The position numbers were made by a program, and so were the translations under genes. Positions 1-64,000 of a stretch of DNA of 64,000 bases are shown here, piece by piece. Numbering within the stretch: the first letter of the stretch is position 1; each line of letters opens with the position of its first letter. This stretch comes from Volutella citrinella. Taxonomy: Eukaryota; Ascomycota; Sordariomycetes; Hypocreales; Nectriaceae. The stretch covers positions 4,241,429 through 4,305,428 of the forward strand of contig JAWZSP010000007.1 of NCBI GenBank assembly GCA_034401135.1. The letters are read 5' to 3'. Below the pieces are notes generated by a model. It saw nothing but the letters and a program-made list of their open reading frames with translations, was not told the origin of the DNA and searched no databases.

Positions 1-111
1 AAAAATTAAAGTAAAGAGTTATAAGAGCGCTCTATCTTTTTAAACTATTTTTAAATTAAGTAGTAATATATATATAAAAGGATAAAATAGTATTAAATAT
101 AAAAAGATTAA

Positions 112-675
112 AAAGCACCCTTTTAATTAATTTGCTTTTATCTATCTTATTATTAAGATACTACTATACTCTTTTTTATTAATATCTATAACTTAGATAT
201 TAGTTAAATAGGTTCTTATTAAAGCACTCTCTTAATTAGTTTACTTTTATTTATCTTATTATTAAGGTACTATTATACTCTCTTTTATTAATATTTATAA
301 CCTAGATATTAGCTAGATAGGTTCTTATTAAAGCACTCTTTTAATTAATTTACTTTTATCTATCTTATTATTAAAATACTATTATATTCTCCTTTACTAA
401 TATTTAAAACTTAGATATTAACTAGATAGGTTCTTATTAAAGCACTCTTTTAATTAATTTATTATTATCTATCTTATTATTAAGATACTATTATACTCTC
501 TTTTATTAATATCTAAGACCTAGATATTAGCTAAATAAGTTCTTATTAATATACTCTTTTAATCAGTTTACTATTATCTATCTTATTACTAAGGTATTAC
601 TATACTCTTCTTTATTAATATCTAGGACTTAAATACTAACTAGATAGGTTCTTACTAAAGCACTCTCTTAATCTA
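112..675. repeat. 109-bp tandem satellite, RIP-degraded
   Basis: Five copies and the start of a sixth follow each other at exactly 109 bp. The block that starts AAAGCACYCT begins at 112, 221, 330, 439, about 548 and 657. Copies differ almost only by C/T and G/A, and the whole stretch is very TA-rich, as expected for a tandem array hit by RIP. I see no coding potential. The array may continue to the left of the window in a degenerate form, since bases 1-111 have the same composition. Confidence 0.85.
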
Positions 676-1929
676 TTTATATAACAGGCTGCTTTTATAA
701 ACTATAATTCTAAAAAGCAGTATATACAGCTTGTATTTATAATGGGTATTATATAAGCAATTTACTAAAAGGTTAAAGTAGTTAGTATATTATTTATAAC
801 CCTACTATATAATAGAGTTAAAGCGCTAATATAATAAGAATTTATCTAATTAATACGAAATTTTAATATTAATATATATATAGACTAATTATTCTATATA
901 TAAAGTTTGAGCTATTTTAAGCAAGGTTAAGTCTTTGAAACTAACCCCTTCTTAATATAGTGAAACTGATCCCTGTCTTTTTCAGGTTGGCTAACCCTAG
1001 TTAGGGAATTTTATTGAAACTGACCTCAATTTCACTGAAACTAGTAGTTAGACTTCAACCGCACTAGGTGCAGATCCAGTGATGCTGAGTCGGAGACCTC
1101 GGGGGCTGAGCCGGGATCGCCATTTGGAGCCGAGTGTCTGTCGTCTCAGGAGCTTCCATCGCGGCGCCATTCTCGTCGCAGATCCTCACAGGCATATGAA
1201 GTGCTGCAAGGTACCGGTACGACCAAGGCGCAGGCACCGAAATTTCTGGCAGTTCCTGTTATCGCGCCAAGGCTGACTTCAATATACAGCCAAAGACACC
1301 TAGAATCATTTCCAAGTCTTTGGGCTGCAGTTAGTTGAGAGGCATCCTTGTACTTGTTCGAGTATTTTTAATGGGGGTGGTTCGATTGATGAGTTGAAGA
1401 TTCCCGCGCACTTGGTTTCTGGCTAGAGCGTGACATTTATTTTGAGGTTCTGGGCAACCTGACTTGGGGCATTGCTTATCACAAGGATCTTGGCCACCCT
1501 AAAGTTCGCAAGCCGCGAACTGAGATGAATCCCGAAGGGCACTACAGAAGGATTCCTTCTTCTCCTCGTCCATCGTTAGCTATGAAGAATTGAGTGATAG
1601 CTGGACAGTCTGTTTGGTTTTACTTAATAGTGATTCTGCTATTGCGCATGTCTAGATAGATGGTGTTGCCAGTCATTAGAATGATGTCGGGAACAGATCC
1701 ATATGAAACTGCGCAATCAGTTAGACGAGAAATTATTACCAAGCTAATTAAGTTTTTTCATAGCTTTGTTCTATTAAGCGCCTGCCACAAATCGTTCGAT
1801 GGCGAGGCGACGGCGCCAACCTTGGCCATCAGATCATGGCAGGTGCTGCTATATCGCCGAGAACATAAGTACGGTTTCGCTCGGCCGTGCCTCGTTTGTC
1901 GGGCAGCCGACACGCCTTGCCCCTCAACA
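676..1929. other. Gene-poor stretch between satellite and RING gene
   Basis: Bases 676-900 remain AT-rich and RIP-like; composition returns to normal near 930. Around 940-1050 a short phrase resembling GAAACTGAC recurs three or four times. Only short open frames are present and none resembles a family I know. I can support no gene here. Confidence 0.4.
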
Positions 1930-2573
1930 AATGGCTGCAATAACCAACAACTTTCGATCCAATGTCCTTCCTAATGAGGGCGATACCTCATCACTTCCGG
2001 CTTTTGCCTGGCTTCCCGCCATGTTGCTGCCACTACTTATTATGATGGTAGTCTTGGCCATCCTTCTTGGTTCCGGGTACGCATTCACAATACCTGATGC
2101 TTGTCCCCTTGCTAAGTAAGGAATGCAAGACTACGCAAACTCATTACACACTTCTGGCCTATCGACTCTGAAGAACCCGCAGGTTCCGAGAGCTCTGGGT
2201 CATCGGCTGGCAACAGAGACGCGCCGCGACTGGATTTGGTTGCACCCCCCGAGTCCTGCAAGAAGATGAGGGAGCGGCTAGCAGCCAGGGGAATACTTCC
2301 TTCCTGGGCGACGTTGAGCTCGCTCGCGGTCTGGTACGCTCCTTGATTGGTAAGCAGCCGTCGTGCTCTGGACTGACTGATCCATATAGCGCCATTTGCT
2401 TGGATTCTATCAAGGATGATGACCTGGTTCGCCATCTACCCTGCGAGCACACTTTTCATTCAAACTGCATTGCCCAGTGGTTCATGAGGAGGCATGACAC
2501 CTGTCCTGTTTGCGCGATTCACTTCATGCCGCCTCAGCTTGCGCATTGTAGGTTGGCGCGGCAGCAAGCATGA
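1930..2573 (+). CDS. Membrane-anchored RING-H2 finger protein (E3 ubiquitin ligase-like)
   Basis: The 3' part encodes a RING-H2 finger: C-x2-C (CAICLDS), then LPCEHTFH, SNCIAQWF and DTCPVC, the cysteine/histidine pattern of E3 ubiquitin ligases that bind an E2. The first cysteine codon is restored only if an intron is removed (2334-2389, GTACGC...ATAG), which joins TG to C. An upstream open frame from ATG 1930 encodes one strongly hydrophobic segment (about 1995-2090), so a small single-pass RING protein is likely. The junction between that exon and the middle exon (about 2116 to 2160-2190) is unclear: no splice choice I tried is fully convincing in phase, so the gene may be decayed. The stop codon lies at 2571-2573. 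RING identity is firm; the gene model and intactness are not. Confidence 0.6.
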
Positions 2574-3592: not shown

Positions 3593-4712
3593 ATGGCCAC
3601 GCCCAATCTTCCCACCGAGCAGTGGGCTCAGGTTGTTGAAGCACCCGGAGGATGTAAGCGTTCCATCTCTCTAATCTGACTCTGAATGGTCACTCACCGC
3701 AAAAATCATAGCTGTAACCTACAAGAGAGTCCCTGTGCGCGCACCAGGCCCTGACGAGGTCCTGGTCAGCATCAAGTTCTCTGGTGTTTGTCACACGGAC
3801 TTGCATGCCATAATGGGTGACTGGCCGTTGGAGAGGAAGATGCCTCTCATCGGCGGCCACGAGGGCGCGGGCATCGTTGTCGCTAAGGGCGGGCTAGTCT
3901 CCAACATCGAGATTGGTGACCATGTAGGCATCAAGTGGCTCAACGGGTCATGTCTCGACTGCGACTTTTGCCTTCAAGGAGACGAGCCGCTCTGCCCCAA
4001 GGCACTCCTGTCCGGTTACACCGTCGACGGCACGTTTCAGCAATATGGCATAGCCAAGGCTGCACACGTCACCAGAATCCCTTCCGAGTGTGACCTTGAG
4101 GAGGTCTCCCCGATACTCTGTGCAGGACTCACCGTGTACAAGGGTCTCAAGGAGGCTGGCCTTCGCCCGGGGCAGTATGTTGCGATAGTCGGCGCAGGCG
4201 GCGGGCTTGGGTGCTTTGCTCTTCAGTTCGCCAAGGCCATGGGCATCCATAGCATCGCCGTTGACACGGGGGAGGACAAGCTCAAAGTCTGCAGAAGCCT
4301 GGGCGCATCGGCGACTGTCGATTTCAAAACTTCGTCCGACGTCGCCCGCGACGTGAGGGCGGCTGTCCCGGACGGCTACGGGCCTCACGCGGTTCTCTTG
4401 CTTGCAACCCGCGATGAGCCATTCCAAGAGGCTCACAGCTATGTCAGGCCGCACGGTAGCATTGTTTGCATAGGAATGCCAGCCCAGGGGTTCCTTAAAG
4501 CACCGTTATTCGAAACTGTCGTGCGAATGGTCAACATCAAGGGCAGCTATGTTGGCAACCGGCAAGACGCAGCCGAGGCCATTGAATTCTTTCGACTCGG
4601 ACTGATCAAGGTGCCGCACAAACTTATGGGCCTCAGCCAGCTCCAGGATGTATACAGCAAGATGCTGAAGGACGAGGTGGTTGGCCGGTATGTAGTTGAT
4701 ACAAGCGGATGA
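3593..4712 (+). CDS. Zinc-dependent alcohol dehydrogenase (yeast ADH1 type)
   Basis: Model join(3593..3653,3712..4712), 353 aa, the usual length of tetrameric yeast-type ADH, which interconverts acetaldehyde and ethanol with NAD. The 58-bp intron (GTAAGC...CATAG) joins an N-terminal peptide ending APGG to SVTYKRVPV, which starts the catalytic domain. Catalytic zinc ligands are Cys47 (GVCHTDLH), His70-Glu71 (GGHEGAG) and Cys157. The structural zinc site is Cys101, Cys104, Cys107 and Cys115. The Rossmann loop GAGGGLG lies at 181-187, and an Asp at the end of the second strand (IAVDTGEDK) favours NAD. No stop or frameshift is seen and composition is normal, unlike the neighbouring pyruvate decarboxylase remnant, towards which it is transcribed. 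It looks like the one surviving enzyme of a fermentation locus; the physiological substrate is inferred from the family. Confidence 0.93.
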
Positions 4713-5076
4713 TGTCTCATGTACTAGGTCTCAGTAAAGGACCCTAGTTTACTACAGAGTTCGGTTTGTTGCGATCTTGATGTAGGTCGTTTAGGGTTGC
4801 TATATGTATATTCAATTCAACAGTAAATGATCACGCCTGGTTGCATGGGTTGGCCTGAAGAATGAACACTCTAGTCCCTTAGTTACTTAATATTTATAAA
4901 GCCATAGGTTAGCTACCTGGACTTGTAAGGAGAACACGAAGATTGAAATTAAAATTAAAAAATCCTTTATAAATTAAACAACAAGGCCTTCCAGGGTAAG
5001 CTAAGATCTCAAAGACTGAATCCCAACACCTGCAAGCAGCAGCAGGGGGCGACCCCTGTATAAACAATCTGGCTCG
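4713..5076. other. Convergent intergenic region, left edge of RIP block
   Basis: This lies between the 3' ends of the ADH gene and the decarboxylase pseudogene. Composition changes from normal to AT-rich at about 4870-4990. No gene or clear terminator can be named. Confidence 0.4.
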
Positions 5077-7224
5077 TCAATTTTTGGCCGGACGCTGTGC
5101 ATTAGACGCCGCAACAAAATGGCCCTAAGTAATCAACTCCCTGCTATAATCATCCTAGTAGAGATTGCACTTAATGAGGGTCAGCCCCTTAGTATGCGCA
5201 GTTGCTCTGTCAAGAGCGCGAGATAATTTATCAATAGTCTGGGCTTTAAGGCCAAGAGCATGCCCTCTGCCCTCCTTAAAGTTAAATATCTATATTAGCT
5301 GCGCATAGTCCTAGTTCTAAAGCCAGTTATATAGTCTATTATAGATCTCAACCTCGATTATATAGCCTTGGTTATTTATTAGAAGTATAATAATAGGTAT
5401 ATAGAACTGCACTATTTGCAAGATCTCTTAAATAGTTATTTAAAACGCATTGTTACTGACTATAATAACAGTCCTCCTTGCTAGTTTGGCCAGGGAATAG
5501 CTAAATAAGGCAGGAATTGTCTACCTAATATAGCCTTATTATATCTCGATCTTAAAATCTGCCCCCTTTAGAAAGCGTAGCTAGATGCTATTAAACTACG
5601 AATTGCTTATATTAGTAAACACTATTGTCTTTAAAGTCAGGAGGAGCTGGGTCTGCTTTATAAGCTCCCTTTTAATAAAGTTGCTATATTTATTAAAGCA
5701 GTATATTAAAAGAGAATCAGAGCACAGCTAGTTATACTTAACTATTATATAGTTATTCTAGCTAACTGCCTTAGCTAGAGTGGATAGAAAATCGCATAAT
5801 TAGATATAGCTAAAATAGGCACTTAGTTTTATTATAGTTATACTATTAAAATTAATAACTAGCTATAAAATACTAAGTAAAGCTATTTACTTAATAATAC
5901 TATAGTTAGTAAAGATAGTACTAATATAGATAAGTATATCCGCCTAGTTAATAATAGTATTAGCTATAAGTATACTAACCTAGCCCTAAAAGATACCTAT
6001 AAACTAGGTATAGTCCTCTAAGAACAAGCTCTTTACTACTAGCTGTAGAACTATAGCACACCTAAAAGCCTCTGCTAGACAGAGCAGCTCCTTCTTAGCG
6101 CTAGCCCTTTATATCTTAGGCTTAATAAGAATAATAGGCTTCTTTATAATCCTTAAGTATATTAATACCTTAGCTATAGCAGCATCTAGGGTCGGCCTGT
6201 CAGTCGGGGTCAGCTTAAGAATAGCACTTATAGGCCTAGGTTATACATATAGCTCCCCGGACAGGTTTATAAGCAGCTCGAGATAGGCCAGCTTCTGCTT
6301 TAAGAGCGCTATCCAGATAGTCCAGTTAATAGCCTCTAGCGCTTAAGTAGTAGTATATATAGCTATAGCACTGCAGGTAATAGCCTTAGCTATCTCGAAC
6401 TAGTAGTTTAAGTTATACTTACCTAGTATATAGTAGAGGAGATAGTAGCCTAGTGTGACGATCGGGTAGGTTCTAACTGTGTAAACCTAGTACAATGTAC
6501 TGGGGGTTTATATTAGCAGTCCGACATGGCGTATACTGAGCTTTAAATGAGTTGGCTGTGATCCCAGGCGTGGCGATCACACTGTCACGTTAGGTAATAG
6601 TCAATCGAGGTGATTGAGGTAACCAAGTTGTATTGATAGCTGAAGAGCTGCTCATACTAGATGTGCACTCTTCACAGGTCTATATAGTTTGTCTAGTCCT
6701 TTGTTACGTGGCCTACTGCCTGTCCTTTGTTCACGGAGCGTGGTATGCCAGGGAGCGCAGCGCTCTAGGAGCGCCGTCGCTCCCTTGTTCATCGCTCCCA
6801 TTCTGATTGGTCCGTAGTCACGTGGGTGGGGCGCTGGTTCTTCCGTTCCGAGCGGCTGTACCGCGGGTCCGGGCACCGTGCAGTAGCGTCAGGTCCTGAC
6901 ACCTAGGTTATTAGTATTAGGCGCTTTACTAATAAAGATAACAGGCAGGTTCTCTGTATAGGCACTCTTAATACTATTAAAAACTAAGAATACACCTATG
7001 CTATATATAATAATACAGGCAGCTGCTCTATAGGCGCGTGTATAGCCCTTGGAGGCAAGGGAGTAATTGAGTTTGTTTATGCAGCCCACCTTGGTTAGTA
7101 ATGGGTGCGCCTTGAGCTTGTCAAGGAGAATAAGGTTGTAGTCTCCTAGGATAATAAAGTGATAGCGGATCCCGATCTAGGCAAGCCTCTTGGCGAGATA
7201 GTCGCTGACTGTGAACGAGGCCAT
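5077..7224 (-). pseudogene. Pyruvate decarboxylase (Zymomonas-type), destroyed by RIP and split by a solo LTR
   Basis: Read on the minus strand from ATG 7224, with the LTR and one target copy (453 bp) removed, the remnant has 565 codons including the stop, matching the roughly 565-residue Zymomonas-type family and keeping one frame. Recognisable stretches are MASFTVSDYLAKRLA at the start, ILGDYNLILLDKL, SAYTENLPVI, FEIAKAIT, KLTPTDRPTLDAAIAKVL and, near the C terminus, GLKAQTIDKLSRAL. These follow the family order: thiamine-diphosphate-binding N domain, linker, C domain. Residues known to be catalytic are changed by transitions: the cofactor-activating Glu (CNELNC) is now Lys51 and the His113-His114 pair is Tyr-Tyr (codons 6430-6435). 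Several Trp or Gln codons are stops. The enzyme made acetaldehyde and CO2 from pyruvate, the substrate supply for the adjacent ADH. It is certainly non-functional. Confidence 0.9.
6454..6901 (+). mobile_element. Solo LTR (448 bp) of an LTR retrotransposon inserted in the decarboxylase pseudogene
   Basis: The element begins TGTGACGATCGGG and ends GTCCTGACA, with TG...CA ends. It is flanked by perfect 5-bp duplications CCTAG (6449-6453 and 6902-6906). Removing the element plus one CCTAG restores the reading frame of the interrupted pseudogene. No internal retrotransposon sequence is present, so the element was probably reduced to one LTR by recombination. Its composition is normal while both flanks are strongly RIP-mutated, so the insertion probably came after RIP. 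Related copies lie at 20664-21108 (minus) and 44469 (plus). Confidence 0.92.
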
Positions 7225-8064
7225 GATTTGTATAGGCGAAGCTTTCACTGGTAACTGTAGAGGTGCTGCTGGGAGAAGCTGGAGCCACTGAGCTGCCTTT
7301 GGGTGATCGGTTGGCCATGCGGTCGTCATTTATGCCAGGCAGGAGAGGGCGAGCTTGTCGAGATGTTACGTGGATCGAGTGAGTCTGTGTACACTCATAG
7401 CTTTTCTCTGGCCACTGAGGATATACAGCCTTGGATGATATCACGATGCGCGACTAATTGTCTTAGGCAGACTGGCAGAACACATGCAAGCGTCGCTATT
7501 AGAATGATGCGCGATGCAAATTGCCGACTCCGTAGCATGACAGAGGCATGATGATAAGGGCCACCAGCTGATGGCATAAGATCCTAAAGGTGTTGCCATC
7601 ATCTAGCCGACAGGACATGAATCACATCATGCCCTGGAACATGATATAATAACTCCCGACACTAGATGCAGACGCGGCGCAAAGGCAAAGTTGATGGTGG
7701 GCCTCAGAGAGCCCTTATTAGTGAACATCGCTGACGGAAGTCAAAGTTACAACCTCTAAGATAGTCCCCGTCGGACAAGCGGAGAGCTCCGCGTTCCGGG
7801 TGGTGTCATTAATAGCCGACTAGCGAAATCCACCCCTGAGAGGTTCGCATATAGGCAATGCCCGAGGCTACTATAAGTCCGTTTTTCTCTTAATTATGGC
7901 TTATAATTATTAGATACTGCTTTAAACTGCCCTTACTAGATATTATATACTATAGATTTAAATAACCTAGCTATTTATACTATCAGCTTAGAGCTATAGA
8001 ATAAGCAGGCTTTTTTAAACTAAGGATATATAAAAGCTAGCTTATATTAAATACTATAAATAAT
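7225..8064. promoter_or_regulatory. Shared upstream region of two divergent pseudogenes
   Basis: This stretch separates the starts of the decarboxylase (minus) and PEP synthase (plus) pseudogenes and so once held both promoters. Bases 7225-7860 have normal composition, whereas both flanking coding regions are TA-rich, so RIP spared the middle of the block. Short open frames here resemble nothing I know. Confidence 0.45.
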
Positions 8065-10443
8065 ATAGAGACTAAAGGACTACTAGTCTATAACTTAGAG
8101 GACTTATTATATAATAATAGCCCCTAGGTTAGTAGTAAGAACTCTTCTCTAAGTAAGATAATTAGAGCCCTAGGCTTAAAAAGTATTATAGTACTGCCTA
8201 AGTTTATAACTATATTTAATATATACTAGCACTTTATTAATACTAACTATATTTAAGGTAAGATAGACACCCTTATTATATAGTAATAAGACGGGTATAT
8301 TATGCTAGCTAAGGCAGGCTATATAGTATATAGTTTATTCTTTTATTATAGTAGCTAGCTAGTAGACACAGCTTATACTATTAAAGTAAGCTATTATAAG
8401 CTATTTATAAAGCTTAGTATTAAGAACCTAAGTATTACTATATACTTTAGTACTATAGTTAAAGACCTTTTAAATATAAGCTTTACTAACTAATAAGAGA
8501 CATTCCTTAATATCTTAAGTAAGTAAGCTCTTCTAGATACTTACTAATACTATTATATATTACTTTTTACTAATAGGGCTATTAGTTACTACTAGGTTAA
8601 AGGGTTTAATTATACTAATATTACCCTCTTAGTTAGTATCTAAGCTATAGTATACTCTGACTTAAGTAGCTTAAGAATTTTATTTTTTATTAATACTAAG
8701 AGCAGCTTTAATAAGGTAATACTTATTAATACTGCCTAAGGGCTTAATAAAAACATTATCTAGGGTACTATTAACTTAGATAAGTATTAGGTCTTTAAGC
8801 TATTACTTTTAGACTTTAACTTATTTTTTATCTTAAGTAAAAGATATAGTAATAAGGATATTAAGATAATTTATAATAACTAGGATAAGTATATATAAAA
8901 TATACTTATTTTAAAAGCTAAGAGGGCTGCCTTTATTCTTAGTAATAGTAAGATCTTCTAGCTAGCTTACTAAGAGTATATTATTAAGAATTATTATAGC
9001 TGCTTTATAAATATAGAGTGGGCTAAGAATAGTATTATAAGCCAGCTATTTATTATCTAGGCTTAGCTTAAGATAGTGTACTTATACTATAATACTACTG
9101 TCTTTAAGACCTATTTAATAAGTAATAAAGGCTGCTTTTTAATCTTAAGCTTTTTAATTAGTAATAAGGCTGTCTTTAAGCAGCTCTACCTAATAGTATC
9201 TACTAAGAATATTAACTAGTTTATTAATAACTTAATTCTAATAACTAAGGCTATAGACTCTAATTAAGTGCTTATTATAAAATATACTACTATTATTATT
9301 ACTAATTATAGCAGGCGCACTTTATATACTATTATTATTAGCTATAAGTTAAGTATTCTAGCTATAATAAGTACTAAAAACACTATATACTTATTATATA
9401 GTAGCTAGAATATAATTATATCTTATACTAAAAGTAATATAAGCTTTATATATAAAGGTATCTTAGATATTATAACTTAGATAGTAGACTTAGTTAACTT
9501 GTTTTAAGTATATACTAAGATTATACTTAACTTTATTAACTTAAGCACTGCTTTTTATTAATAGCGCCTCCTAGCTAATAATATCAGCTTTATCTATATA
9601 GAGTTTATTATAATTAATACTATCTAGGTCTACTTTATAGCTCTTATTTACTTTAACTAGCTTAGAAATACAGATATAAAGTAAAAGATATTATAGCTAA
9701 TAGTTAGCTATAATATTAAGCCTAACTACTTTATTAATAAGCTATCTTATAGCCTTATAGCTCTTTATACTATTATTTACTTAAAGCTAGTAATTATCTA
9801 TATAAGTAACTTTAAGATAAATAAGTATATAGGGCTTATTAATAGTATATAGTTTAAGATTAAAAAGGATAACTTTATATTAAGCTTTTATAATACTTTA
9901 TACTATTACTTATTATTATATAAAAAAGGCTTTATACTTAAATATTATATAGTTAAGTAGCTTTATAAGAAAATAGGCCTAATTAATACTATTATTATAA
10001 TCCCTTTCTACTAGACTATTAATAAGGCTAAAAAGGTTATTAATATTATAATTAATAATAAGCTCTAGTATAGTAAGAACGGCCTGGAGGTCTATATTAT
10101 ATATAAGATTCCTTTTAATATTATTCTAGCCTTGAGCTTTATTAAGCACTTTAATAGCTTCTCTATTAGCTTTAATAACTTAATACAGCTAACTCTTAGT
10201 ATTAATTACAACTTAAGTAAGCTAGCTAGCCTGTTTAATAAGCAGGATGAGGTTATTAAGTAGATAATTGCTTGTATTATCTCAGTTACTTATAAAAAGG
10301 GATATAAGATCGGACTCTACGGCTAGGCGCTAAGCGACTACCCTAAATTCGCAAAGTTCTTAGTTAATATAGGTATTAACTCTATCTTAGTAAGCCCTGA
10401 TAGTTTTATTACTATTAAAAAGCATATAGTAGCTACTAAGTAG
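8065..10443 (+). pseudogene. Phosphoenolpyruvate synthase (pyruvate, water dikinase), destroyed by RIP
   Basis: A single frame from 8065 (ATA, presumably a mutated ATG) to the TAG at 10441-10443 holds 792 sense positions, the length of bacterial PpsA, but is full of stops. Diagnostic remnants in order: KNSSLSKIIRALGL (KNASLGEMI near the N terminus); TNYSRRTLYTIII, the phosphohistidine loop, in which the catalytic His is Tyr at codon 421 (9325-9327), the same number as in the E. coli enzyme; YKIPFNIILALSF (EIPSNALLAEQF); FNNLIQLTL (SNDMTQLAL); ASLFNKQDEVIK; and SDYPKFAKFLVNIGINS. The enzyme converts pyruvate and ATP to PEP, AMP and phosphate. Differences from family consensus are mostly explained by C-to-T or G-to-A. 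Bacterial-type PEP synthases are uncommon in fungi, so an older horizontal origin is possible (inference). Non-functional. Confidence 0.88.
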
Positions 10444-10922
10444 TTATAAATACAAGGCGCGGGTTAGTGCAGGGCGATAAATAAAGCTATTGCAGTTATA
10501 TTTTAAGTGTATTAATTAAAAAGTATCTGAGACTTATATAACTAGAGTTTTAAGTATTGCAGCTTTAATATTTATTCGTTAACGATTCTATACTATTCTC
10601 TTATATAAGAATGCTTTTTACTATATTAAAACATCTACTGTAATAGTGAATTGCTGTGTTCTGAATACCCCTCGTGGTGGCCCGCCAGAGTGAGATAAGG
10701 AGACGCTGTTACCGAAAACAAAGGACATGTTTCGACTCAAATATTATGCCAGAACCAAACTTATCGGTGCCTCCTACCTTTTGATATATAGCGCAACGGT
10801 TATCTTTAGTTCCACAATAGATCAGGTAAAATCAACTCTGAAGAATATTGCCATTAACTTAAGTAGACTCCCAACAAATACATAAACCTCAATCTGTTAT
10901 ACAGCGCCCTACCCCACCCTAC
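10444..10922. other. Convergent intergenic region, right edge of RIP block
   Basis: This lies between the 3' ends of the PEP synthase and lactate dehydrogenase remnants. RIP composition fades at about 10640. Nothing else is recognisable. Confidence 0.4.
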
Positions 10923-11958
10923 TCAGTAGCTATGATGGATCCTTTTAAGAGCCCTTTTCAGCTCCACAGCTGACCGGGCTATGCTGGACTCTTCCTCGCT
11001 GTCCAGAGGTCTCCGCACGGTGCTGATAACTCCCTGTCGTCTGATGATAGCAGGAAGGCTGAAACAGCAATCGAGTTCTAGCTGGTAATAGCTGACAGGG
11101 CGAACGTCACCCTTATCCAGGAGAATAGATAAGCAGATACTAAAGATGATAGAGCCTAGCCTAAATAGAGTCGCACCCTTAGCTTAGATAATACTCTGCG
11201 ACCGATTCTTATACTTATCCGCCAGCTTATCGCGTTTAAGAATGCTAGCTACGGCCGACTTATCTATAGGCATCCTGCTGACTGTTGCAGTTAACTATGC
11301 TATAATCTGGGCATCACTGTGGACGCCTAGCACGGAGATATCTATTGTATCTGCTGCGACCTGGAGCTTGCTCAGTATATAAAGATCCCAGCGCATAAGC
11401 CCAGGGTGCACTTACTCCCGACTGCCCAGCTATTATTCCACAAAGCCGCACTGAGTCTAGATAGGTGCCCGAGCTAAAGACCTGCGAAACCGGGAGATTG
11501 GAAAGCTCATGGGCGATAGACGTGAGAAGGTCGACGGGGTTTGCCACGATGAGTAGAATGGTGTCCTGCCTGAACGGCTTCATAGACTCGACCACCTCGC
11601 GGACAATCGATATATTCCGCGATGTGTAGTCGAGGCTGGTCTGACCTGGGGGGAATTCGAGTAAGTTAGCGCTCTCAACCACTGCTTCTCATCCGCTTAC
11701 CTAGGGTGTGCTTGGATCCGGCCGTCACCACTACTATGTCAGCCTTGGCTGCCTCGTTGTGAGAGGCCGCTCGCACGCGCGTGCCGTTGTTGTAACCGTA
11801 GGCGATATCGCAGAGGTCCCGGACCTGGCCGTTCCTACGATGATATTTGTGTCAACTAGCAGCAACTTACTTGCGAGGGAGCTGAGGATGAGTGCGTAGG
11901 CTGCTGCGCTACCGACTTGACCTACGCCAATAATCGCGATCTGGAATCTCGAAATCAT
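10923..11958 (-). pseudogene. L-lactate dehydrogenase remnant
   Basis: From ATG 11958 on the minus strand the remnant opens with a Rossmann fold (IAIIGVGQVGSAAAYAL, then LLLVDTN). After a one-base frameshift near 11848 it continues DLCDIAYGYNNGTRV and ADIVVVTAGSKHTL. A family-like intron (GTAAGCGG...CCCCAG) precedes LDYTSRNISIVREVV, then VANPVDLLTSIAHEL and SGTYLDSVRL, which keeps the Asp and Arg of the active-site helix. VLGVHSDAQ keeps the catalytic His. The C terminus reads LLDKGDVRPVSYYQLEL and ends at TGA 10923-10925. In-frame stops fit Trp-to-stop and Gln-to-stop transitions. RIP is milder here than in the two neighbouring pseudogenes. The enzyme interconverted lactate and pyruvate. Non-functional. 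Confidence 0.88.
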
Positions 11959-20663: not shown

Positions 20664-21108
20664 TATCAGGACCCACGCTAATGCACCGTGCCCTGACGTG
20701 CGCACAGCCGCACGGACTCGGAAGAACTACACACCGAGCCCCACGCATCAAGCATGCGACCGACAGACAAAGGATCGGTCGGGCACTCGACCGAACCTCT
20801 TGGAGGCGGTCGTAGCAAACGACCGACGAACACAAAGGCGGTCGACGAAAGGAAGAGGAAGTACAGGTACAACAGCTAGTAGTATATAGACCCCCGAAGA
20901 GTGCACATTTAGTATGAGCAGCTCTTCAGCTATCAATACAACTTGGTTACCTCAAATACCTATTTGACTATTACCAGACGTGACCAGAGATCTTCCACGA
21001 AGATCGACCCCCAGCAACGCTCAGTATACGCCACGTCAGTTCTGCTAACATAAACCCCCCAGTGCATCGCACTAGGTTTACTCAGTTAGAACCTACCCGA
21101 TCGTCACA
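20664..21108 (-). mobile_element. Solo LTR, second copy (inverted)
   Basis: This is the reverse complement of the LTR at 6454-6901. On the minus strand it starts TGTGACGATCGGG at 21108 and shares the body (GTAGGTTCTAAC, GGTAACCAAGTTGTATTG). The other end reads TATCAGGACC where the first copy has TGTCAGGACC, a G-to-A change at the terminus. The flanking five bases (20659-20663 and 21109-21113) do not match, so no target duplication survives. Confidence 0.85.
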
Positions 21109-44468: not shown

Positions 44469-44680
44469 TATAACGATCGGGTAGGTTCTAACTGTGTAAA
44501 CCATGTACAACGTACGGGGTTTATGTTAGCAAAACGGAAAGGGTAATACTACTGAGCGGTGATCCAAAGGTTAGGATCGCTGTCACGTTTGGTAATAGTT
44601 CAATGAGGTTTGAGGTGATTAAGATAACCAAGTTGTATTGATAGCTGAACAGGCTGGTCCTCTTCATTGTACTCGCGCCT
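44469..44680 (+). mobile_element. LTR fragment, third copy
   Basis: Starts TATAACGATCGGG, where the intact copy has TGTGACGATCGGG (two G-to-A changes). It follows the other LTRs through GTAGGTTCTAAC and AACCAAGTTGTATTGATAGCTGAA with many differences and indels, then loses similarity near 44665-44680. The remaining half of the LTR is missing. It abuts the 3' end of the Baeyer-Villiger gene. Right boundary approximate. Confidence 0.75.
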
Positions 44681-63869: not shown

Positions 63870-64000
63870 GGGTTAGGGTTAGGGTTAGGGTTAGGGTTAG
63901 GGTTAGGGTTAGGGTTAGGGTTAGGGTTAGGGTTAGGGTTAGGGTTAGGGTTAGGGTTAGGGTTAGGGTTAGGGTTAGGGTTAGGTTAGGGTTAGGTTAG
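63870..64000 (+). repeat. Telomere repeat array (TTAGGG)n
   Basis: About 20 uninterrupted TTAGGG units run to the end of the window, G-rich strand towards the terminus, which identifies the chromosome's right end. The last 20 bases contain two shortened TTAGG units. Any open frame through the array (Gly-Leu repeats) is an artefact. Confidence 0.98.

Follow-up and report, generated by a model that had tools for sequence, protein, structure and literature searches.

Genes of the same families as those of the locus studied here have been described in the genus Aspergillus. In A. nidulans, AN5842 is ldhA (PMC4684279) and AN5843 is pdkA, a PEP synthase (PMC3641053). In A. fumigatus, transcripts annotated as alcohol dehydrogenase (ADH), lactate dehydrogenase (LDH), pyruvate decarboxylase (PDC) and PEP synthase (PPS) are present in resting conidia and drop at germination, according to the available part of the report (PMC2556354). 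The LDH (Afu4g07050), PDC (Afu6g00750) and PEP synthase (Afu5g14790) named there show no linkage by their numbers and may not be orthologues of the genes described below; the number next to the PEP synthase, Afu5g14780, belongs to a trehalose phosphorylase. The accessible portion of a 2020 review states that eukaryotic PEP synthases are mostly annotated in one fungal group 'without any functional evidence available' (PMC8100219). A description of a cluster of all four genes was not found among the literature matches listed (subscription journals and preprints being mostly outside the search), and papers on fermentation genes leave such a cluster unmentioned in the parts that are accessible (PMC3635940, PMC4869263, PMC10580998, PMC11502334, PMC6027865, PMC3293747, PMC4426372).

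The window analyzed here is a stretch of 64,000 nucleotides from Volutella citrinella, and its positions 3593-11958 very probably represent what is left of a second and diverged copy of a fungal cluster of pyruvate-node genes (PDC, PPS, LDH-like, ADH), located about 52-60 kb from a telomere, i.e., in a subtelomeric position. The anatomy of this cluster and the action of RIP on it are close to certain. An earlier note made from the letters alone had proposed four adjoining pyruvate-related genes with an intact ADH beside three broken neighbors; Pfam domains of all four families were indeed detected, and a 353-aa ADH frame without stops lies beside stop-filled PDC and PPS genes and a frameshifted LDH-like gene. 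The zinc ADH is encoded on the plus strand by two exons (3593-3653 and 3712-4712; intron 3654-3711) and matches ADH_N (E 5.8e-25) and ADH_zinc_N (E 3.5e-21). Its homology to solved yeast-type zinc ADHs is full-length, the closest chain being 5yat (mitochondrial alcohol dehydrogenase isozyme III, 408.5 bits), with 366.3 bits for 4w6z (alcohol dehydrogenase 1).

The PDC relic on the minus strand (5080-7224) matches TPP_enzyme_N, TPP_enzyme_M and TPP_enzyme_C (E 2.5e-13, 1e-8 and 5.2e-5) and is split in two. Codons from about 110 to the end, RIP-mutated and with 25 stops, occupy 5080-6453 (Pfam and alignment to the intact copy), whereas the N-terminal part of about 108 codons, with one stop and weaker RIP, was placed at 6907-7224 by alignment to that copy. 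Between them lies a solo-LTR-like dispersed repeat of 448 bp (6454-6901, TG...CA), bracketed by CCTAG, a target duplication of 5 bp, at 6449-6453 and 6902-6906; it has at least 47 matches genome-wide, its own copy counted, ten others being nearly full length (72-90%). The divergent intergenic region between PDC and PPS (7225-8055) is by its composition mostly without RIP, with a composite index of -0.39 overall, and AT-rich, RIP-like sequence restarts, by eye, about 200 bp before PPS. The PPS (pyruvate, water dikinase) relic follows on the plus strand at 8056-10440; it is full length and the most heavily affected by RIP, has 39 stops in 794 aligned codons, and was identified by PPDK_N (E 5.6e-29) and PEP-utilizers_C (E 1e-16) only. 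The LDH-like relic on the minus strand (10926-11958, three exons; Ldh_1_N E 2.4e-14, Ldh_1_C E 4.4e-14) is damaged in exon 1, where the frame shifts near codons 39-42, and in exon 3, which has two stops.

The second copy that had been predicted elsewhere in the genome exists: all four genes stand intact on another contig, C9 (2482882-2491582), with open frames of 796 aa (PPS), 565 aa (PDC), 308 aa (LDH, two introns) and about 353 aa (ADH). The PDC-PPS-LDH core is collinear with that of the window, on alternating strands; the expectation of the same gene order is borne out for this core but not for ADH, which neighbors PDC in the window but lies on the LDH side of the core on C9. Coding identity between the two copies is now 54% for PPS, 63% for PDC, 68% for LDH and 71% for ADH, and the two ADH proteins share 77% of their amino acids over codons 22-352.

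Of the four genes, PPS and PDC alone carry RIP-type mutation. Compared with C9, the PPS relic shows 388 C>T against 46 T>C changes and 370 G>A against 45 A>G, and 33 of its 39 stops fall where the C9 copy has a Gln, Trp or Arg codon; the corresponding counts for PDC are 205 against 46, 186 against 39, and 24 of 26 stops. Dinucleotide frequencies in the PPS relic relative to expectation are 0.21 (CpA), 0.25 (CpG) and 1.61 (TpA), and its composite index is 1.57, versus -0.93 for PPS on C9 and -0.44 for the window from 13 to 64 kb. Of the C/G sites of C9, the share that reads T/A in the window rises and falls again within PPS (0.45, 0.71, 0.37) and within PDC (0.23, 0.62, 0.23), the intergenic DNA being mostly spared. 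No excess was found in ADH (composite index -0.79) or in the LDH-like relic (C>T and its reverse, 35 vs 40; G>A and its reverse, 50 vs 46). The label 'RIP-killed', which the earlier note had applied to all three broken genes, is thus right for PPS and PDC, with their one-sided changes and stops, and wrong for the LDH-like gene, with its frameshift, two stops and no excess. Two DNA_methylase loci are present in the genome, with open frames of 1330 and 438 aa, assigned at the family level, which does not distinguish RID from DIM-2.

We suggest that, during a sexual cycle, RIP would have paired both clusters via PPS (2.4 kb) and PDC (1.7 kb), which offer the longest coding blocks with the best conservation and are each one open frame on C9, and would have mutated these two genes but not ADH, LDH or the diverged DNA between genes; segregation and selection would have kept the C9 copy, which is on a different contig, free of mutation, and the LTR insertion and the frameshift would have come after or alongside RIP. 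The genome yielded no more than two PPDK_N genes, and C9 is therefore the only visible RIP partner; we rate the chances that it was the actual partner as about even. Transversion distances to C9, which are invariant to RIP, are lowest for the RIPed genes (PDC 0.092, PPS 0.102, ADH 0.122, LDH 0.126). The identity before RIP, estimated from transversions, is about 75-77% for PPS and PDC (it may have been higher at the time of RIP), which is under the threshold of roughly 80% usually quoted for RIP. Local divergence correlates weakly with RIP across the PPS and PDC windows together (rho -0.15 to -0.20, p 0.29-0.37), somewhat more strongly within PPS by itself (rho -0.41 to -0.60, p 0.03-0.08) and in no clear way within PDC by itself (rho -0.19 to -0.46, p 0.10-0.44); with divergence measured by transversions across all four genes, rho is -0.52 (p 0.008), LDH being partly misaligned. 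An estimate from T>C and A>G counts (PPS 82%, PDC 81%; rho 0.86 with RIP over 25 windows) was discarded as upward-biased, because RIP itself erases such changes and so inflates identity; the transversion-based identity was used instead, and the argument from an identity threshold is therefore weaker.

RIP classically requires close duplicates and usually mutates both partners, and the C9 cluster is both diverged and unmutated. A trigger other than C9, be it another recent partial duplicate since lost or itself RIPed, or leakage from nearby transposons, is accordingly a serious contender, to which we give somewhat less than an even chance. A large AT-rich block does directly precede the region (window 1-950 and some 4 kb ahead of the window), but the untouched ADH separates it from the relic, a duplicated segment should have had its intergenic DNA RIPed as well, and a third PPS was not found in the genome.

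Judged by sequence, the window cluster has on C9 an old paralogue or xenologue and not a recent duplicate, because the window PPS and LDH join Fusarium nematophilum while those of C9 join Dactylonectria, and because coding identity is only 54-71%. In the PPS tree the window gene forms a set of four rows (98) together with F. nematophilum, F. phalaenopsidis and one metagenome protein; in the tree of LDH exon 3 it groups with F. nematophilum (93), inside a set with F. solani and F. falciforme (99). These placements, together with the subtelomeric location, would also suit a window cluster acquired from a Fusarium-like fungus, through introgression or horizontal transfer, instead of one that arose by an old duplication. 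We regard such a transfer as possible but rather less than probable: Fusarium has several divergent LDH-like and PDC copies, so that old duplication followed by losses fits the trees equally well, and RIP has made the branch of the window PPS extremely long.

The PPS of C9 scores 1097.4 bits against TIGR01418 (curated cut-off 739.75) and 1118.4 bits against NF005057 (cut-off 598), and it has both of what we take to be the PEP synthase motifs, the phospho-His motif GGRT.HAA (119 of 121 rows) and the C-terminal Cys motif CGQ (114 of 121). The presumed PDC motifs are likewise conserved, C9 included (catalytic Glu and GDG 121/121, HH 118/121, GYTIE 120/121). The best solved chains for the C9 PDC are ANC27 (696.5 bits) and 5euj (630 bits), compared with 240 bits for 2vjy; we take 5euj and its neighbors to be bacterial PDCs and 2vjy to be the yeast enzyme. 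A phosphonate-type cluster was considered and set aside, as the decarboxylase carries the TPP central domain and the PDC motifs.

The 'LDH' of the earlier note does belong to the lactate/malate dehydrogenase family (Ldh_1_C: C9 72 bits, window relic 58.8, cut-off 22.6; Ldh_1_N also in the window), but is probably not a plain lactate enzyme, being an LDH-like protein that lacks the loop Arg and, to judge from its residues, may not make lactate. What we take to be the substrate-polarizing, catalytic loop Arg (R109 in dogfish numbering) is Thr in C9 and Ser in the window, and is Arg in only 6 of 121 rows (C9 plus the best 120 of 999 matches). Arg171 and His195, presumably the substrate-carboxylate and the catalytic residue of LDH, are kept in C9 and found in 121/121 and 99/121 rows, respectively. 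The C9 protein falls below the NCBI LDH cut-offs (271.5 < 303.55 for TIGR01771; 252.8 < 339 for NF000824), but this library is bacterial and archaeal, and the cluster ADH (240.2 < 344) and PDC (360.6 < 946) are likewise below the cut-offs of their best models.

For the living cluster on C9 we tentatively propose, largely by analogy with the conidial transcripts of A. fumigatus, a role in pyruvate routing in resting cells, though we hold this to be somewhat doubtful. When cells are starved, at rest or respiring poorly, as in conidia, pyruvate would partly be converted to ethanol by PDC and ADH and partly be returned to PEP through PPS, with the LDH-like protein as a putative NAD-dependent 2-hydroxyacid enzyme. 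A plain fermentation cluster making lactate and ethanol is unlikely, even though all four proteins are annotated to families that fit fermentation and the PDC and PPS motifs are conserved. According to the available part of the A. niger study (PMC4684279), wild-type A. niger shows marginal lactate oxidation and disruption of a putative ldh in A. oryzae shifted the lactate yield slightly, but an ldhA-type protein of A. niger was inactive on lactate, even with its missing catalytic histidine restored. Together with the absent loop Arg, this leaves lactate fermentation unproven. The direction favored by PPS, moreover, is toward PEP, with ATP consumed; use of the enzyme in glycolysis is nevertheless described for one archaeon (PMC8100219, accessible portion). 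Returning to pyruvate routing, the reading that joins all parts, namely a cluster of filamentous ascomycetes centered on a PPS derived from Rhizobiales-like bacteria, with a bacterial-type PDC, an ADH and an Arg-less, non-lactate LDH relative, serving resting cells and with one copy erased by RIP at about 75-80% identity, is one that we offer as conceivable, with roughly one chance in three in its favor.

A reading of the AT-rich blocks as debris of transposons, with enzyme matches arising by chance, is refuted, notwithstanding stop-filled AT-rich DNA close to the telomere and one real repeat insertion, by a PPS alignment over 795 positions, three TPP domains in the correct order, a gene set and strands that agree with C9, and a check, suggested with the original claim, in which the six frames of 4.8-12.5 kb matched the PDC and PPS domains and no transposon family of Pfam at E 0.01.

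By locus tags and contig sizes, many ascomycetes have PPS next to LDH or in its vicinity, and some have PDC there as well; the linkage anticipated for related species was thus recovered for PPS with the LDH-like gene, and often PDC, in filamentous ascomycetes, whereas ADH was seen to join them in this genome only. PPS and LDH rows lie on equally sized contigs in 22 of the 26 assemblies that could be matched by name, with consecutive tags in 4 of 5, and PPS and PDC rows in 7 of 10; equal contig size is not proof of adjacency, and these data derive from 90%-identity protein clusters, in which the longest contig may not be that of the named member. Among 80 bacterial PPS loci, some only a few kb long, identity to the fungal PPS is highest, at 73-74%, in four: a Rhizobiales bacterium, an Arenimonas MAG, Ciceribacter and Agrobacterium. 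As a source of the whole cluster these loci were rejected, with no PDC and with LDH (2) and ADH (4) rare and weak (29-36% identical).

Compared with known systems, the A. nidulans pair AN5842/AN5843 represents the same two gene families under consecutive locus numbers and is not called a cluster in the available parts of its reports (PMC4684279, PMC3641053); it offers a laboratory system for studying the cluster genes, and linkage to LDH-like, PDC and ADH genes gives fungal PEP synthase a concrete, testable context. The ldhA-type protein of A. niger lacks the catalytic histidine that the C9 protein keeps, and the missing Arg of the family may help to explain an A. niger 'ldhA' without lactate dehydrogenase activity. 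With RIP-inactivated genes of other ascomycetes the window cluster shares the excess of C>T and G>A, the gain of TpA, the loss of CpA and CpG, and stops at Gln, Trp and Arg codons; it differs in that two of four cluster genes are affected while flanking genes and most intergenic DNA are spared, and this half-RIPed cluster, two genes destroyed beside spared neighbors, is a natural case for the similarity threshold of RIP.

The genome assembly comprises 45.1 Mb in 26 contigs, and the window occupies positions 4241429-4305428 of contig C7, where TTAGGG repeats (window ~63870-64000) close both window and contig; the relic locus is therefore subtelomeric, and the window end is the chromosome end. 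Pfam scans of all six frames, in which stops were read as X, recovered the four pyruvate-related genes that the earlier note had placed there, namely a zinc alcohol dehydrogenase (ADH, 3593..4712, +), a pyruvate decarboxylase (PDC, 5080..7224, -), a PEP synthase (PPS, 8056..10440, +) and a lactate-dehydrogenase-like gene (LDH-like, 10926..11958, -). A RING-finger match (zf-RING_2, E 2e-11) is located upstream of ADH at window ~2391-2513 (+). Upstream of the cluster, a strongly AT-rich block (GC 0.15-0.33) covers window 1-950 and C7:4237429-4241428 and resembles the product of repeat-induced point mutation (RIP) in its window part.

A functional copy elsewhere in the genome had been predicted, and an intact cluster was found on a second contig, C9, consisting of ADH (about 2482882-2484007, -, one intron), LDH-like (2484748-2485802, +, two introns, 308 aa), PPS (ATG at 2488704, -, 796 aa) and PDC (2489885-2491582, +, 565 aa). 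Six-frame genome searches yielded two PPS loci, that of the window and C9:2487664-2488638. Read on the opposite strand, the C9 order is PDC(-) PPS(+) LDH(-) ADH(+), as against ADH(+) PDC(-) PPS(+) LDH(-) in the window; the order is thus shared for the collinear PDC-PPS-LDH core but not for ADH, which has switched ends. Compared with 50 kb around the C9 cluster, the window matched the four cluster genes and, beyond these, a dispersed repeat and a single short segment rich in AT. Among the listed matches that carry an organism name, those closest to the C9 genes came from Dactylonectria and Ilyonectria (identities of 93% for PPS, 90% for LDH, 94 and 92% for PDC), which makes the fungus a probable nectriaceous ascomycete.

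Regarding the claim that RIP had killed three window genes, comparison with the C9 copy bears it out for two. Over 794 aligned codons, window PPS contains 39 stops; C9 has Gln, Trp or Arg at 33 of these positions, and the substitutions are one-sided (C>T 388 vs T>C 46; G>A 370 vs A>G 45). In PDC, 24 of the 26 stops over 563 codons fall at positions of this kind (C>T 205 vs T>C 46; G>A 186 vs A>G 39). The LDH-like gene, aligned in four pieces, showed no such excess (35 vs 40; 50 vs 46) but carries two stops and a frame change near codons 39-42. ADH has zero stops and a trend opposite to RIP (C>T 32 vs 74; G>A 26 vs 50). Dinucleotide shifts concur on which genes were affected: window PPS has a GC content of 0.247, with CpA at 0.21 and CpG at 0.25 of expectation, and the composite RIP index is 1.57 for PPS, 0.94 for the C-terminal piece of PDC and -0.79 for ADH, compared with -0.72 to -0.98 across the C9 genes and -0.44 over window 13-64 kb.

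Each RIP tract peaks over one gene and declines toward the gene ends, and the 831-bp PDC-PPS intergenic region was mostly spared, which suggests a partner sharing coding but not intergenic sequence. The C9 cluster shares sequence with the window copy in this manner. Transversions are unaffected by RIP, and by transversion distance PDC (0.092) and PPS (0.102) are the least diverged from C9 (ADH, 0.122; LDH, 0.126). The C9 cluster would then be the partner whose pairing triggered RIP of window PPS and PDC, a model to which we give an even chance. Against it count the freedom of the C9 copy from RIP mutation, the weak within-gene correlation of divergence with RIP, and an implied pre-RIP identity, by arithmetic from transversions, of about 75-77%, below the roughly 80% usually quoted as needed.

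The relic genes are nearer to other species than to C9. The best match of window PPS was F. nematophilum (46.5% after RIP; C9 41.5%, rank 7/121), as was that of the LDH-like gene (61% and 78% for its two pieces, with C9 at rank 7/121), whereas PDC best matched a metagenome protein (74% and 60%; C9 rank 4/121). Trees built from a subset of relatives (PPS 39/120, LDH 33/120, PDC 26/120) concur in placing the relic apart from C9, the window branch in the PPS tree being extremely long owing to RIP. The window copy may stem from an old duplication followed by loss, or may have arrived by horizontal transfer. In F. oxysporum both LDH-like and PDC exist in several diverged versions (strain 4287 has three LDH rows; PDC copies include FOBRF1_007283 and 015828), hinting at birth-and-death of cluster genes.

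A repeat of 448 bp, of the TG...CA form and flanked by duplicated CCTAG, interrupts the PDC relic; it has at least 46 further matches in the genome, of which ten cover almost the whole element at 72-90%. Its GC content of 0.526 suggests insertion later than RIP, the order being unsure because its own composite index is 0.51. Partial copies of the same dispersed repeat occur at window ~20883-21108 and ~44469-44652.

Linkage in related species, also anticipated, was assessed in 120 PPS and 120 LDH rows, each row standing for proteins clustered at 90% identity and carrying the longest contig of that cluster; pairing by organism or strain name was possible for 26 assemblies, leaving out other F. 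oxysporum isolates, A. flavus (different strains) and Bionectria ochroleuca (no contig given). PPS and LDH-like lay on contigs of identical size in 22 of the 26, equal size on megabase contigs being no proof of adjacency: D. macrodidyma, F. redolens, F. nematophilum, Truncatella, Mariannaea, Coniochaeta PMI_546, Chaetomium AT-0129, Triangularia, T. evansii, Achaetomium (5,233-bp contig), A. terreus, Cladorrhinum PSN332, P. maclennaniae, C. olivicolor, P. antarcticum, Cercophora newfieldiana, Parachaetomium, Hirsutella, Echria, Thozetella, A. nomiae and F. oxysporum 4287 (one of three LDH rows). Sizes differed in F. falciforme, Pseudogymnoascus australis, Cephalotrichum and A. granulosus; an additional F. 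oxysporum pair was matched by equal contig size alone. Ordinal tags, available for both PPS and LDH-like in five assemblies, were consecutive in four (ACJ41O_005690/005689, ATERTT37_003770/003769, N7477_004655/004656, VTI74DRAFT_2023/2022), P. australis being the exception. PPS and PDC shared a contig size in 7/10 named assemblies (including FOBRF1_007282/007283; not in T. cf. simile, Triangularia or A. granulosus), and all three genes did so in five. The comparison across other fungi covered these three genes; ADH was seen beside the cluster in this genome. Independent support for PPS-LDH-like linkage comes from A. nidulans, where the available text of two papers names AN5842 ldhA (PMC4684279) and AN5843 the PEP synthase pdkA (PMC3641053). 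The A. fumigatus locus numbers count against linkage: in the available part of PMC2556354, PEP synthase is Afu5g14790, the adjoining number Afu5g14780 belongs to a trehalose phosphorylase, and the numbers given there for LDH and PDC are far away.

The LDH-like gene is not to be assumed to supply the lactate step implied by the name lactate dehydrogenase. In two alignments the C9 protein has GQTT where the solved LDHs aligned with it have GESR or GETR, so that Thr replaces the loop arginine (R109 in dogfish numbering), and the window copy has GQTS. Among C9 and the best 120 of 999 relatives, this position is Ser in 50, Thr in 35, Asn in 12 and Arg in only 6/121, while Arg171 (121/121), Asp168 (115/121) and His195 (99/121) are conserved; Gln occupies the catalytic His position in 19/121. 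Many database entries still label this fungal family, which mostly lacks the loop arginine, L-lactate dehydrogenase. The C9 protein falls below the NCBI LDH cut-offs, from a prokaryote library, which counts little because the cluster ADH and PDC also miss theirs. An A. niger ldhA-type protein is described, in the accessible portion of Dave and Punekar (PMC4684279), as inactive on lactate even after its missing catalytic histidine was restored. The carry-over is indirect, since C9 retains this histidine and wild-type A. niger shows marginal lactate oxidation (PMC4684279, same portion).

Among 80 bacterial PPS loci kept from at least 594, the best four (Rhizobiales bacterium, Arenimonas MAG, Ciceribacter, Agrobacterium) share 73-74% identity with the PPS of the fungus, and in a 46-row tree, which we rooted on the five rows from bacteria, the 41 from fungi separate with support 100. 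A putative bacteria-to-fungus transfer is likely on these comparisons. PPS of the yeast Trichomonascus vanleenenianus groups with Coniochaeta (support 80), within a group at 99 with Echria, inside the filamentous-fungus tree, suggesting a possible fungus-to-yeast transfer.

PDC and ADH together lead from pyruvate to ethanol. PPS yields PEP, consuming ATP, according to the available text of PMC8100219. In the parts available of two further papers, germination of resting conidia lowers expression of A. fumigatus genes that carry the annotations ADH, LDH, PDC and PEP synthase (PMC2556354), and A. niger conidia contain transcripts for fermentation and gluconeogenesis (PMC3635940); these genes are likened to those of the cluster by annotation. 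By this analogy, our leading but tentative guess is that the living cluster might route pyruvate in resting or starved cells. A description of the cluster was not found among the matches listed in a literature search; it adds one more example to fungal metabolic gene clusters and to RIP decay, both of them kinds of system already known.
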